13,349 nt of DNA, taken from the NCBI GenBank assembly GCA_023132135.1, contig JAGLYR010000024.1, positions 1 through 13,349 of the forward strand, written 5' to 3'. The notes beneath the pieces are model-generated. The model searched no databases and was not told where the DNA came from. It was given only the letters and a program-made list of their open reading frames with translations. Positions 1 through 5,876 of this stretch are shown here, in pieces (position 1 is the stretch's first letter; every line of letters begins with the position of its first letter). Source of the stretch: Candidatus Eiseniibacteriota bacterium (GTDB lineage Bacteria > Arandabacterota > Arandabacteria > JAGLYR01). The position numbers and the translations under genes were made by a program.

Positions 1-725
1 GGGACAAACAACTCCGGCGTTGACATGGACCCCAAGTCTCAACAGTCTTTGTCTGGCGGTACGGCAGTGTCTCCTTGGCAAACAGGGGCAGCAACGACTC
101 TATGTTCCACCTGCCCTCCTTCACAGAGTGACGGAGGAATGCGAAGAACATCCATAGAGCAGGCGCTACTGAGAGCAACAGCCCAACTAAGAACTTCCAA
201 TTCGGAGACAGCTTCGGACTGATGCTGAATTGAAATCCATCTTCGAGGCCAGATTGCAGGAAAGCCAGACCAACAGGCACAAACAGTAGCAGCAAGGCGA
301 ACACCGCTCCCGCCCTCGTGAGGCGCGGAAGCGTTGTTGTCTCTTCGTAGCTTCCCCCCCCTGGATATCTTGTTGAGGCTCTGCTGCCACTTCTCTTTGT
401 CTTTGATCCAGTCTAGCCCGTCTATGACGCGTTCAAGGAACGTCCGCCGCAGAGGATCACCTTGGTGAGCCCACGCGTCAACGATGACAACGGCCACTTC
501 CCCTTGTTTCTTCTCCCGATCTCGATCCAGTTCCTCCTTCACTAGATTCACCACGGTCGACTTACCAGAACCCCATGTCCCCTGAAGTCCAATTGTCTTT
601 CCCCCGCTCTCAGTACGGAGCAGCTGAACAATTGCCTTGGCTATCCTATCATGTGATCCGAATTCATCCTTGCTGGCCGGAACATCTGAGATCAGATTCG
701 TCGAGCGTGTTTCGTCTTTGCCCAT
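1..725 (-). pseudogene. KAP-family P-loop NTPase, frameshifted and cut by window edge
   Basis: KAP NTPases are membrane-associated P-loop ATPases with a transmembrane insertion between Walker A and Walker B; many lie in bacterial defence or plasmid loci. The first frame (725 to about 354) reads MGKDETRSTN and then the Walker A motif GTWGSGKST, followed by VVIVDAWAHQGDP, all typical of the family. At a run of eight G (plus strand C, 354-361) the frame is lost. Dropping one G restores a sensible continuation: SYEETTTLPRLTRAG, then two hydrophobic helices (around AVFALLLLFVPVGLAFL and FLVGLLLSVAPALWMFFAFL), exactly where KAP proteins have their membrane hairpin. Near 30-36 a second shift is likely, because another frame gives GSMSTPELFV, which fits the family better than the in-frame reading. 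The Walker B half lies beyond base 1. The start at 725 was chosen over ATG 785 because GAAGGGAA lies 10 bases upstream. It is either a real pseudogene or a homopolymer sequencing error. Confidence 0.75.
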
Positions 726-900
726 GGTGGCACAATTCCCTTCTGGCCTGAGCTTGACAGATTTTCCTGTTGCCGTCCTCTCCATCCGGACGGGCCTGCG
801 CTGTCGGGTGTCCTCGGAAAGAGCCCCATGTCCAGAACCACTTGACCTTAGTCGGATTACTGCGAGTCACCCGCGTATTCTGGGGACATAACATCTATTT

Positions 901-1130
901 CTAGTCCCACCGCTTCGGAGGCCGCCCGGCCTTGCCTTTCGTGAAGTCTCGACCGGTGAGCTTCTCCACCAGCTCACGTGGTTCGTCATCAAACACCACG
1001 ACAGAACCTCCACCCCAAACCGCTCCGTCTCCTCACGTATGAATGCGAGATACCGCCGACGATCTTCATCATCGCCGAAGATCGCCATCGACCGCACCCC
1101 CCGCTGCGTCACGTGGTACGGGTACTCCGG
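901..1130 (-). pseudogene. REP-associated (RAYT / IS200-like Y1) transposase remnant
   Basis: The reading PEYPYHVTQRG..RSMAIFGDDEDRRRYLAFI....FGVEVLSWCLMTNHV is a clear match to the N-terminal part of TnpA-REP (Y1_Tnp) transposases, single-strand HUH nucleases that mobilise REP palindromes. Three faults show it is dead. The first residues before PEYPYH are missing. The HUH motif, which should read NHVH, stops after NHV at about 971-980. In a different frame the sequence then resumes directly with ELVEKLTGRDFTKGKAGRPP and stops at TAG 901-903; this is the usual basic C-terminal tail of the family. The catalytic tyrosine region between these points is therefore deleted. The joint falls in CACGTGAGC, so a short shared GTG may have guided the deletion. 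The N-terminal end overlaps, out of frame, the C-terminus of the neighbouring membrane protein. No REP-like palindromes could be confirmed next to it. Confidence 0.8.
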
Positions 1131-1773
1131 CCAGTCTACTGTAGTGTTCGTGAACTCTGTACATGTGCAGGGAGTGGAGGCTGGCAAAGACCATGAACAT
1201 GACCAGAGCGCCGGATCCGACGATGAGCTCAATTACCGCAAGGTGAGGCCTAACCAGTACATAGGTGAGCAATGTGAAAATCACACTGTTGAGAGCAAAC
1301 CCCCAGTATACGAAGAAATGCAAGAGCTGCCACTCCCAGTGACCCTTGGCTTCCGGGTTCCTGAAGAACCATGAAAGCACTTCCACGTACGGAAGCCCGC
1401 TCATCATGCGAGTGGAAAACAACCGCCACTCCCAGTGACACAACCTCGGAATGAGATTCAACAGGGCCGTTACCACAAGACGGAATGTGCTCTCTAGTGG
1501 CGTGAGTGCTATGCCGATTAGCAGACTCAACAGGAGCATGGCGGAGAATTCGAAGAAGGTACTCGCATTCTCAGTCTGTGAGACCCAAGTCCCGAAGATC
1601 CCGGATTCGAGCATGGACTGCAGGCTTTCAAACTTGGTGCGCCTGATGAGATGGATCAATAGCGGGACGTTAACGAAAAGGAAGATGGCTCCTTTGAGAA
1701 ACATAGCTGTGATTACCATGATGAATGGGAATCTGGCAACAGCGCTATGTAGCTGAGCGCTCGGGGTGGTCAT
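1069..1773 (-). CDS. Four-helix membrane protein of unknown function, C-terminus fused to transposase debris
   Basis: A 234-residue protein I do not recognise. Hydrophobic segments lie at about 15-43, 72-96, 150-174 and 178-200, so it is an inner-membrane protein with roughly four helices. A cytoplasmic or periplasmic loop between helices 2 and 3 carries two HWEW motifs (113-116 and 145-148). The start at 1773 was chosen because GGAGGA lies 7 bases upstream; a longer reading to 1902 adds 43 polar residues without any ribosome site. The last 15-20 residues (after HEHYSRLAG) are translated out of frame from the transposase remnant, so the natural C-terminus has probably been replaced or cut off by that insertion. 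It may still be stable because the helices are complete. The next gene upstream ends 411 bases away, so it is probably transcribed on its own. No function can be claimed. Confidence 0.6.
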   Translation of the reverse strand: MTTPSAQLHSAVARFPFIMVITAMFLKGAIFLFVNVPLLIHLIRRTKFESLQSMLESGIFGTWVSQTENASTFFEFSAMLLLSLLIGIALTPLESTFRLVVTALLNLIPRLCHWEWRLFSTRMMSGLPYVEVLSWFFRNPEAKGHWEWQLLHFFVYWGFALNSVIFTLLTYVLVRPHLAVIELIVGSGALVMFMVFASLHSLHMYRVHEHYSRLAGVPVPRDAAGGAVDGDLRR

Positions 1774-2184
1774 ATGAGCTTCCTCCAGAGCTTTGGGGGA
1801 CGTTGTCAGCTCAATCAGCCTACTGTGCACCTTCCCGGCACCATCTGTCCAAGTCTGATCGGCATTCGGATCCTTTTCGCATTGCGTGCCATCTGCATAC
1901 ACCTCATTGAACGGCCGAATACGATTGTCTGGCCTAGCTACGGCCTAATGTGGACAGCTTTGTGGAACGTCGCCAGCTTTTTCGACTCGCACTGTTACCA
2001 GCACCATTTCTCCAGAGCAGAGAAGTGTCCGGCGGTCATGGCCTCCCACAGAACACGCACAAGTTGGCAACGGCGCCTAGAGTCTGTATCGGAGCTCCAC
2101 GGCTGGCCCGCGTTTTCCCCCCTGTCAACGCTTAGCAGGCACCGTAGTCGGTACCCACTCATGACTCGGGGCCATGATGGGTCG
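1774..2184. other. 411-base gap without a convincing gene
   Basis: This stretch between the DUF4145 gene and the membrane protein holds only a ribosome binding site at its lower end. A 78-codon minus-strand frame (1995-2231) overlaps the end of the DUF4145 gene and has an Arg/Ser-rich, non-conserved look; I do not accept it. The 43-codon extension above base 1773 is also probably untranslated. No attC-like palindrome, terminator or promoter pair stood out by eye. Confidence 0.5.
1781..1786 (-). promoter_or_regulatory. Ribosome binding site deciding the start at 1773
   Basis: GGAGGA on the minus strand, 7 bases before ATG 1773. It is the reason the membrane protein is called at 234 rather than 277 residues. 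Confidence 0.7.
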
Positions 2185-2880
2185 CTACTCCTTACTCTTG
2201 TCCGGCCGCCTTTCAGAACGACGCCTCCCAATCTCCGCGGGGAGTTCGTACAGAACCTTCAACATCTCACGAATGAACGAGATCAGTTGATATGCATCCT
2301 GTCGTGAGACCTTTGTAATGGGATCGAAATGGGCACCCACATTGCCCACAAGACGAATCTCCTTGGACCATTCCGTTAAGCTGGGGTGAAGAGCTCCCGA
2401 CTTCGAGAGAGCTTCGAGGCGGCTTGCCAAGCTACCGTCGCTGGCGCCCTGATCGTCGCAAATGGCCTCTAGCGTTCTGCGGGCCATTGCAGCGGCAGCT
2501 CTTGGGCAGTTGGCTGCAAGAACAGTCCTGGCCTCTGTGTATGCGGATGATATGGAATCGGGCACATCCCCCGATGTTTCGGTCTCGGGCAGTGGCCACC
2601 AGTATATCCCGCGATGATGAACCTCACGTCCGCCCGAGCGCCGACCCTCGGGCTTCTTGGCGTACTGCTCCTCTATAACGACAACCCCTTGCCGACAGTG
2701 ACGACAGCTCAGTATGACGGCGCGTTGTGTCTCAGTTGGTAAGCCGTCGATTGTTGTGCCAAAATCCCAGCTGACGCCCACTGGATGGCCAACTGCAAAA
2801 CTCGATGGATAACCGCATCGCGGACACACACCACTGGGGCTCTCGGAATCGGGCAGCTCGTCCAACTCCTTCTTGGTCAT
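2185..2880 (-). CDS. DUF4145 (HEPN-clan) protein with N-terminal zinc ribbon
   Basis: A 231-residue soluble protein. Residues 19-22 (CPRC) and 59-62 (CRHC) form a likely Cys4 zinc ribbon. Residues about 110-215 are a DUF4145 domain: a helix with ARTVLAANCPRAAAAMARRTLEAI, then the hallmark EIRLVGNVGAH (176-184), and a closing helix with FIREMLKVLYELP. DUF4145 belongs to the HEPN superfamily and occurs alone or fused to restriction and other defence enzymes, so an RNA-directed or regulatory defence role is possible, but no activity is proven for this form. The start at 2880 was chosen because GGAGGG lies 5 bases upstream and the zinc ribbon follows soon after. A longer start at 2952 (MVNLSEP) also has a GGGAAG upstream and cannot be excluded. 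The C-terminus is Arg/Lys-rich. It is about 300 bases from the gene before it. Confidence 0.8.
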   Translation of the reverse strand: MTKKELDELPDSESPSGVCPRCGYPSSFAVGHPVGVSWDFGTTIDGLPTETQRAVILSCRHCRQGVVVIEEQYAKKPEGRRSGGREVHHRGIYWWPLPETETSGDVPDSISSAYTEARTVLAANCPRAAAAMARRTLEAICDDQGASDGSLASRLEALSKSGALHPSLTEWSKEIRLVGNVGAHFDPITKVSRQDAYQLISFIREMLKVLYELPAEIGRRRSERRPDKSKE

Positions 2881-4034: not shown

Positions 4035-4796
4035 TCAGCGCTGAATCATATCGCGGACCATCCTGTTGATCGCGTCGATAGTTGCCGCTAGCAAGTCTTG
4101 GGCCTCATCAATGTCAAATCGCTTGTCGGGGTGCTGAGTTGGATTTCGGTAGTTGTACCGGAGGTTGTCAAGAGCGTCGAGCATTTCCTTCGGAGGTGAA
4201 TCCCGTCGTTTTCGGAGATGATCGATCATGCCCTTCCACAACATGGTCTTGAGGCGGCCGCGCCTAACGACTCTGCAGTAATAGCTGCGCAAGACGCCCT
4301 CTACGCATCGCATGAGGTAAAAGGCGGCCCCAGTCGGTACTCCGAAGGCAACGCATCGGCAGGCGTCGCTGAAGTCCGCTTGGCAAATGGGCGATAGCTC
4401 GTTATAGGTCTTTTTCCCGAGCAACTCAGCGGGGGAATCAACCAGATGTACAATATCGAAACGCTTTGGAGTCACAACGTAGGCAGTCCGGAGCTGCAGC
4501 TCCGCATCGAGTGTAGCGTCGAGTGCTTCCACAGCCTCAGAGACTCTTTGAGCGAGCGCAGAATCCACCTTTGCATCCTTGGGGAGCCTCCTGGCATCTG
4601 CTCGGATACGCAGAAGTTTCTTCGCGGCTTGGCGTGTGACCTTTAGGTTCAGGTCATCAAGATTGTCAACAAACTCGTCGACTCGCGAGAGTAATGTATC
4701 CCCTCTTCCGTGAACGGGGGTATCTTCGTTGTAGAAACGCAGTAGATGGTAGTTGTACCCGAAGGCGAAGTACTTATAGATTTTGGTTCTACGCAT
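4035..4796 (-). CDS. HEPN-like protein, possible ribonuclease or toxin
   Basis: A 253-residue soluble protein. The N-terminal 100 residues are helical and charged. Residues about 138-250 look like a HEPN-type helical bundle: DFSDACRCVAFGVPTGAAFYLMRCVEGVLRSYY, then LDNLRYNYRNPTQH, then a final helix with EAQDLLAATIDAINRM. The segment RNPTQH (217-222) fits the Rx4-6H motif that forms the RNase site in active HEPN proteins. HEPN domains act in toxin-antitoxin, abortive infection and CRISPR-linked systems. The first ATG (4796) has CGGAG about 10 bases upstream and lies 40 bases after the attC site, as expected for the next cassette gene. No partner antitoxin such as a MNT nucleotidyltransferase lies beside it. 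The HEPN call rests on motif reading, not on a search. Confidence 0.65.
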   Translation of the reverse strand: MRRTKIYKYFAFGYNYHLLRFYNEDTPVHGRGDTLLSRVDEFVDNLDDLNLKVTRQAAKKLLRIRADARRLPKDAKVDSALAQRVSEAVEALDATLDAELQLRTAYVVTPKRFDIVHLVDSPAELLGKKTYNELSPICQADFSDACRCVAFGVPTGAAFYLMRCVEGVLRSYYCRVVRRGRLKTMLWKGMIDHLRKRRDSPPKEMLDALDNLRYNYRNPTQHPDKRFDIDEAQDLLAATIDAINRMVRDMIQR

Positions 4797-4836: not shown

Positions 4837-4899
4837 GGCTAACGCTTTGGCGATCAGAGGCGCCGCGAAGCGCCGTCCGTCTGCATCGCCTTGTTAGCC
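4837..4899 (-). other. attC: Integron attC recombination site
   Basis: Read on the minus strand, the 63-base site starts GGCTAAC and ends GTTAGCC, perfect 7-base inverse repeats that match the R'' (RYYYAAC) box and nearly the R' (GTTRRRY) box. Inside them come AA against AAAGC (the unpaired central spacer), then GGCGAT against ATCGCC (L'' and L'). A single unpaired G follows GGCGAT on the 5' side only, the extrahelical base that sets strand choice. CAGA/TCTG then pairs, and the centre is a GC-rich terminal hairpin (GGCGC/GCGCC around CTTCGCG). The stop codon TAA of the upstream membrane protein lies inside the first box, a classic cassette arrangement. No integrase gene is in the window. Confidence 0.9.
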
Positions 4900-5352
4900 G
4901 CCGACGTTCGATCGAAACACATCGAGAGCCTTGCACTCACAGAATGATGCCAAGACGAAAAGACCTGTGAGTAGGATGTTCAGGGCGATGAGGCCAATGA
5001 AGACCGCCCGCAGGATTACAGATCCGCACCACAACTTGTTCCGCGGGGTCTTGATCATGCGAATGCCGAGTGGCTTGTTCACCTTATCAAGAAGGTCTAG
5101 GTCTTGGTCGCGTACTTCCCAGTCGCGTTCGACGAGACGCCAGATAGCCAATACGAGGAACACGCCAAAGAGGAGAATCGGCACCGCCAGGGGGCGTAGC
5201 GAGAACGCGGCCGCGAGCGTTCCGGCCTCGATGGCGACCAGCAACTGCGTCCTGCCCCAACTAAGCTGGTCTTGGTGGAGATAGTTCGCGGTGAGGTAAG
5301 CGTACACCGCCTCCGGAAGCTCCTTGAAAACGTCCTGCTGTTCCTCGGACAT
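4894..5352 (-). CDS. Small membrane protein carried as an integron gene cassette
   Basis: A 152-residue protein with a polar N-terminus (EEQQDVFKELPEAVYAYL), a stretch SWGRTQLLVAIEAGTLAAAF that begins the first membrane region, a second segment around VPILLFGVFLVLAIW, a charged loop (residues about 72-105) and a third segment VFIGLIALNILLTGLFVLASF. The pattern resembles the short unknown membrane proteins often found in environmental gene cassettes, but I cannot name a family. The start is fixed by GGAGAG 4 bases before ATG 5352. The last codons are GTC GGC GGC TAA and the stop overlaps the attC site, which makes gene plus attC a complete cassette in the minus orientation. The region upstream is the 117-base inverted-repeat element, not a recognisable attI or second attC. 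Its function is unknown; related cassette proteins may act in stress or defence, but nothing in the sequence shows this. Confidence 0.75.
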   Translation of the reverse strand: MSEEQQDVFKELPEAVYAYLTANYLHQDQLSWGRTQLLVAIEAGTLAAAFSLRPLAVPILLFGVFLVLAIWRLVERDWEVRDQDLDLLDKVNKPLGIRMIKTPRNKLWCGSVILRAVFIGLIALNILLTGLFVLASFCECKALDVFRSNVGG

Positions 5353-5372
5353 CGTTCTCTCCGTGCGGCAAA

Positions 5373-5489
5373 CCCGCGTTTCTCACCAGCGATCTGCTGC
5401 GGCGACGCATCTGCCTGCGCTTACTTCGTCATGCTCGTCATCACAGGCAACTCCGTCGCCTCGCGACGATGCGTGGTGAGAAACACGGG
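5373..5489. repeat. 117-base element with 16-base terminal inverted repeats
   Basis: The ends are CCCGCGTTTCTCACCA (5373-5388) and TGGTGAGAAACACGGG (5474-5489), complementary at 15 of 16 positions. A second nested pair is GGCGACG (5401-5407) with CGTCGCC (5455-5461), and GCCTG/CAGGC further inside, so the whole element can fold into one long imperfect hairpin. It lies exactly between the stop of the pilin-like gene (5490) and the start of the cassette gene (5352). It could be a miniature inverted-repeat element, a two-way terminator, or a scar at the edge of the accessory region. No GTTRRRY core was found in it. Confidence 0.75.
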
Positions 5490-5876
5490 CTAGTCGTTGA
5501 GCTTTTCCCACGTCGTACTATCCGCAAATGCATTGTACGTGAGCCGGATCTGGAGCGGATCGCCGTCCCCATCCCCATCCTCAACACCAGTGGCTATCAA
5601 CTGGAAACCCTTCTCCGTGACATTCTGGAATTCAAAGGTACCATTGTCATTGGAGGGCTTTGCGTTGAGCATCTCGATAGTGAGCCCCTCGAAACTCTGC
5701 GTTCCCGATTCCTTGTACCAACGCTCGGCTGCAGCCACAATCAAGGATGCATCCCAAGAGAGGGCTTCTTCGTTGGCCACCGACCGGTCGCCGCCGAACT
5801 GGGTAATCCCCACAAAGGCAGCGAGCCCAAGGAGAAGAACCCCCACAACCAGCAGCACGATCTGAGTGCTATTCAT
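5490..5876 (-). CDS. Small pilin-like single-pass membrane protein
   Basis: A 128-residue protein with an N-terminal hydrophobic helix (residues about 5-27, IVLLVVGVLLLGLAAFVGI) that runs on into an amphipathic stretch (ANEEALSWDASLIVAAAERWYKESG), as in type IV pilins and pseudopilins, where a long helix continues out of the membrane. It lacks the usual basic leader and the G/F-T-L-x-E cleavage motif, so it is at most pilin-like. Residues 99-107 (EDGDGDGDP) are an Asp/Gly-rich loop that may bind calcium, and the C-terminal half is likely beta-rich. GAGGAGGGGG just before ATG 5876 is a very strong ribosome site. It follows the large dockerin protein by 78 bases. Similar short proteins with an N-terminal helix and an 'N-D-A-A-x-Y' stretch are common in this broad group of bacteria (from memory, not searched). 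Confidence 0.65.
   Translation of the reverse strand: MNSTQIVLLVVGVLLLGLAAFVGITQFGGDRSVANEEALSWDASLIVAAAERWYKESGTQSFEGLTIEMLNAKPSNDNGTFEFQNVTEKGFQLIATGVEDGDGDGDPLQIRLTYNAFADSTTWEKLND

Follow-up and report, generated by a model that had tools for sequence, protein, structure and literature searches.

The stretch of DNA analysed here, referred to as the window, is 13,349 nucleotides long and represents one whole contig (C157) of the draft genome of a Candidatus Eiseniibacteriota bacterium (3.4 Mb, 345 contigs, 96% complete). It contains a short membrane-protein gene with an integron attC site at its end and a dispersed repeat before its start, among other features:

2019-2213, minus strand, fragment of a group II intron (RF02005, 70.1 bits) that overlaps a DUF4145 gene at the gene's end
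4035-4796, minus strand, gene of 253 aa, the next beyond R' (ORF list), with no attC of its own recognised
4837-4899, minus strand (the cassette, or top, strand), attC site of 63 bases (folding, shuffle control, covariance model)
4899-4893, 4890-4885, 4884, 4853-4848 and 4843-4837, in minus-strand reading, the R'' box, L'' box, bulged G, L' box and R' box of the attC site
4894-5352, minus strand, cassette gene for a 152-aa protein (ORF list, hydropathy)
5353-5373, minus strand, putative 5' end of the cassette, with TTTGCCGCACGGAGAGAACG before the ATG and GCGGG preceding it
5371-5496, strand not assigned, palindromic MITE-like repeat of a dispersed family (one copy), directly next to the putative cassette start

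The 152-aa open reading frame encodes a membrane protein with two hydrophobic helices by hydropathy. As had been proposed from the sequence, the site overlaps its stop codon, the TAA at 4896-4894 lying inside R'', and the gene runs in the same direction as the attC, with one gene in the cassette. No relatives of the protein were detected in GTDB contigs, viral contigs or plasmids, and a Pfam search has given only a sub-threshold match to 8xMP (E 0.028). The single-sequence fold of the protein (mean pLDDT 65.7) was too poor for a structure search. The seven relatives of the class carry no match to the gene; conservation of a non-mobile locus in relatives would have spoken against a cassette.

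Read on the minus strand, the site consists of GGCTAAC-AA-GGCGAT-G-CAGACGGACGGCGCTTCGCGGCGCCTCTG-ATCGCC-AAAGC-GTTAGCC. R'' and R' pair at 7/7 positions and L'' and L' at 6/6, and both R'' (GGCTAAC) and R' (GTTAGCC) have one mismatch to their consensus (RYYYAAC and GTTRRRY, respectively). Folding with DNA parameters has given a hairpin of -17.8 kcal/mol (z -2.95) on the window plus strand and of -20.6 kcal/mol (z -4.12) on the minus strand, and the folds of both strands show the L''/L' boxes, an extrahelical base on the L'' side, unpaired spacers of unequal length and a terminal stem-loop. The recombining strand of an attC is the bottom strand. The extrahelical G noted earlier is present on the cassette top strand, but the base bulged on the bottom strand (window plus) is a C. 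Crossover is expected between G 4843 and T 4842 (G|TT), and the bulge in L'', the spacers and the gene direction all agree on the polarity of the site. A strict scan for paired R''/R' and L''/L' boxes found one site in the window versus a mean of 0.007 per dinucleotide shuffle, with such a site present in 1/300 shuffles. An Rfam search of the window yielded the group II intron fragment only and no attC-family match. No DNA match to the attC was found in E. coli genomes or plasmids, and the attC pattern had no match in viral contigs.

The covariance check was made with a model built for this analysis (R1) in place of that of IntegronFinder. Training sites were collected with a degenerate pattern derived from the genome's own attCs, so that the model is tuned to that attC type. 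In GTDB genomes the pattern has found 25 loci, in genomes titled Nitrospira, Planctomycetota, Gemmatimonadota, Acidobacteria, Limnobacter, a cyanobacterium, Actinomycetota, Bacteroidota, Dehalococcoidia and deltaproteobacteria; the titles of GTDB genomes with the same attC type name about ten phyla. Class 1 cassette attCs for training were taken from plasmids. R1 was made from 18 attCs of other organisms, none from this genome, and 16 of the 25 pairs in its stems have changed on both sides, beyond all 500 shuffles. R1 also recovered a large Gemmatirosa array and class 1 sites on which it had not been trained, which shows that the model is not confined to the type to which it was tuned. The window attC scored 58.9 bits on the minus strand (E 2.4e-13 over 98 kb and 8.2e-12 over the whole genome), and the plus strand gave no match at this place. 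The R1 scan of the whole contig found no second attC, the next best match having 13.4 bits (E 1.1). The 63 bases at 4837-4899 are thus a genuine integron attC, exactly where the sequence-only reading had placed it, as borne out by fold, shuffles and covariance score.

The 253-aa gene beyond R' would be part of the next cassette or of the insertion site; its protein has a distant relative in Aeromonas (33.5% identity), the gene of which is surrounded by transposases and has no attC of this type beside it. Five minus-strand open reading frames lie downstream of the attC, including those for the DUF4145 protein and a partial KAP ATPase, and the G+C content is 55% in the left part of the contig versus 61% in the right part, where FG-GAP, kinase and redoxin genes are found. 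The idea that other open reading frames of the window are cassettes with decayed attCs is unsupported save for a single GGCTAAC at about 4013-4007, past the end of the 253-aa gene, a motif whose chance frequency is too high to count. Group IIC-attC introns sit in the attC, opposite to the cassette direction. The RF02005 fragment shares its strand with the cassette genes, has no attC adjacent, and was rejected as an intron of this class. It has no reverse transcriptase reading frame beside it, and a second copy at C212:2326-2455 (plus strand) of the same genome is 87% identical to it over 91 bases. Positions 867-1232 (minus strand) contain a weak IS200-like transposase fragment (Y1_Tnp, below the cut-off). 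The contig was broken at a repeat, because its first 25 bases (window 1-25) recur on other contigs, at the ends of C301, C46 and C298 and near the start of C168. A repeat with GGCACCATCTGTCCA is common to all three attC-bearing contigs of the genome (window 1790-1864 on the plus strand, L019:4910-4981 and L084:7435-7473) and is perhaps the end of an insertion sequence.

The finding of a single good site holds for the window but not for the genome, in which the R1 scan has revealed at least four further attCs on two other contigs, in each case near contig ends:

C107, 29855-29914 and 30479-30577, minus strand, attC sites (R1)
C228, 7490-7555 and 8990-9052, plus strand, attC sites (R1)

Comparison of the 63 bases with these sites, as had been proposed, also upheld the window attC. 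The cassette-like genes on C107 encode an Abi_C protein and a 173-aa protein of no known type. Past the last attC of C107 is a Gabija-like GajA/GajB pair (L019:5187-7765, minus strand; GajA E 4e-109, GajB E 3e-54). Directly before the first cassette gene on both C107 and C228 are 33 identical bases, GGGGGTCTTATACGGAACAAGATACTCATAGTT (L019:9432-9464 on the minus strand and L084:6604-6636), whose end is the GTT to which a cassette would be joined. They are a candidate attI that has no intI; this reading is suggestive only, as C107 stops at this point. They are absent from the window and from viral contigs, and a 25-base match (88%) on C282 was set aside as probably due to chance.

The sequence-only reading had expected a new host integrase. 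The genome was searched with the integron-integrase profile TIGR02249 and its cut-off. No match above the cut-off and no complete integron (intI and attI beside an array) was found; the recombinases below the cut-off include two that are XerC/XerD-like and two that are phage-like, as judged by context. The description of a one-gene cassette with no integrase in view stands, and the expected host integrase was not found. It is possible but unlikely that this picture is an artefact of assembly, the intI of an ordinary integron being hidden in a gap, and C157, C107 and C228 being pieces of its array or of strain variants of it. The genome is in 345 contigs with the attCs of C107 and C228 near contig ends, the attI-like 33 bases precede the first cassette gene on both, and CALIN counts are known to be inflated in drafts (PMC9024848), but the genome is 96% complete, on C228 the attI-like sequence and the next gene are too close together to leave room for an intI, no contig end carries a fragment of an integron-type integrase, and the upstream side of C157 consists of 8 kb of ordinary genes with no intI.

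At the start of the 152-aa gene we infer a cassette 5' boundary at 5353-5373 from the sequence. The G|TTTGCC found there is one base off G|TTAGCC, no upstream attC or attI was seen at this point, and the motif sits at the end of the MITE-like repeat. This repeat has 49 matches in the genome on many contigs, in a shorter and a longer form, with terminal repeats CTAGCCCGCRTTTCTCACC (aligned over nine copies) and ends of the form YTAR-CCCGC; in the window the inverted repeat spans 5366-5496. A contaminating or mis-binned contig was rejected, since the repeat family adjoining the cassette is dispersed through this genome. The putative cassette start coincides exactly with the repeat end. A repeat ending in YTAR should show TTAG here, but this TTAG follows the attC instead. 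Both observations would fit a single cassette inserted off target, in trans, at an attG-like GTT in the repeat end (GCGGG|TTAG), with the sequence left of R' as the old repeat flank, and insertion at attG sites has been described as a route (PMC12901181, citing Loot et al. 2024). However, the TTTG at the repeat end is itself one base from YTAR, TTAG is the commonest start of an R' box so that the fit may be due to chance, and R' pairs 7/7 with R'', as a foreign flank would do only by luck. Such an insertion is on balance distinctly improbable. Almost no weight can be given to the view that the 152-aa gene is followed by a transcription terminator, or by a palindrome that arose by chance, and not by an attC: the position at the stop codon and the stable hairpin are outweighed by an E of about 1e-11 in a strand-specific model, the rarity of such sites in shuffles (1/300), the absence of a T run after the hairpin and the existence in other phyla of related sites whose stems covary.

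Of seven further genomes of the phylum that were compared, only that of another family (G004) has an integron-type integrase (402.9 bits), and by eye its sequence looks broken, the C-terminal catalytic part being shortened and out of frame. Sites resembling attC are present in six of the seven; their scores lie between 46 and about 20 bits, the lowest-scoring sites being doubtful, and in one genome (G001:C177) a methyltransferase gene is flanked by two of them. Two relatives from different genera have in common a 1.4-kb stretch with 84% identity (L090:1396-2787 and L092:1614-3005), and each copy adjoins a weak attC-like hairpin (25 and 20 bits, respectively); the two genomes either share a cassette here or have a fixed locus followed by a terminator. 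A much bolder proposal, to be regarded as a long shot, is that attC cassettes persist across the genera of this small phylum almost without an integrase of their own, are kept and moved by integrases that arrive in trans, and in some cases land at the ends of dispersed repeats that serve as attG-like sites.

Overall, the locus is best explained, with a probability of about 0.8, as a gene cassette (the 152-aa gene with its own attC) within a scattered set of attCs without integrase, that is, a CALIN or, for the contig alone, a single-site SALIN. The earlier choice between a lone cassette and the edge of a cluster is thereby refined to a scattered integrase-less set, with the four attCs on two other contigs. 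The cassette reading is supported by the strand-specific 58.9-bit match to a model that was not trained on this genome; the absence of the gene from the class relatives and the lower G+C content of the left part of the contig also speak for it. A CALIN needs two or more attCs within 4 kb in the absence of an integron integrase; C107 and C228 fit the two-site rule, in a draft genome in which no such integrase was found, while C157 has one attC only, and against the CALIN reading the assembly is fragmented, so an integrase could sit in a gap. An integron integrase would once have been active in this lineage, or have been supplied in trans; it would have bound the folded bottom strand (window plus strand), inserted the cassette after a cut next to G|TT. 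With no integrase present, the cassette would now be immobile, and an incoming integrase could still excise it. Movement by an integrase in trans is plausible by analogy, because 8/9 of the archaeal attCs tested have recombined with a class 1 integron (PMC9668308). For integrase-less attC sites, off-target insertion, loss of intI and rearrangement have been proposed as origins (PMC8618304); any of these, or an assembly gap, may account for the stranded cassette.

These results add integron cassettes for a sparsely sampled bacterial phylum, and show that the genome's other attCs have genes of phage-defence type in their vicinity (Abi_C and the Gabija-like pair). An attC type common to about ten phyla fits cassettes as a pool that crosses phyla. 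This kind of element is well described already, and the gain is one of range, not of principle.

The set resembles the CALIN and SALIN elements of IntegronFinder (PMC9024848, PMC8618304), which likewise comprise attCs and cassette-like genes without an integrase. Integrons in metagenome-assembled genomes (MAGs) of poorly sampled lineages are mostly of these forms, and CALIN is the commonest form in archaeal MAGs (PMC9668308). Unlike a typical CALIN, the sites here are spread over three contigs of a draft, of which two only fit the two-site rule. The window attC shares its length class, core (GATGCAG..ACGGCGCTTCGCG) and polarity with a 60-bp attC type (TAACAACAGCATGCAGCGGACGGCGCTTCGCGCCGCCGCTGATGCTG..CGTTA) of Limnobacter, Nitrospira, Gemmatimonadota, Planctomycetota and others, but it differs in its L boxes (GGCGAT/ATCGCC) and in the greater length of the L'-R' spacer, and a site on C107 (76.9 bits) is nearer to the common type. 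Although it differs from the cassettes of class 1 integrons in having no intI, attI1 or resistance gene, the window cassette shares with them the R''-L''-L'-R' order, the extrahelical base in L'' and a gene that ends at the site.
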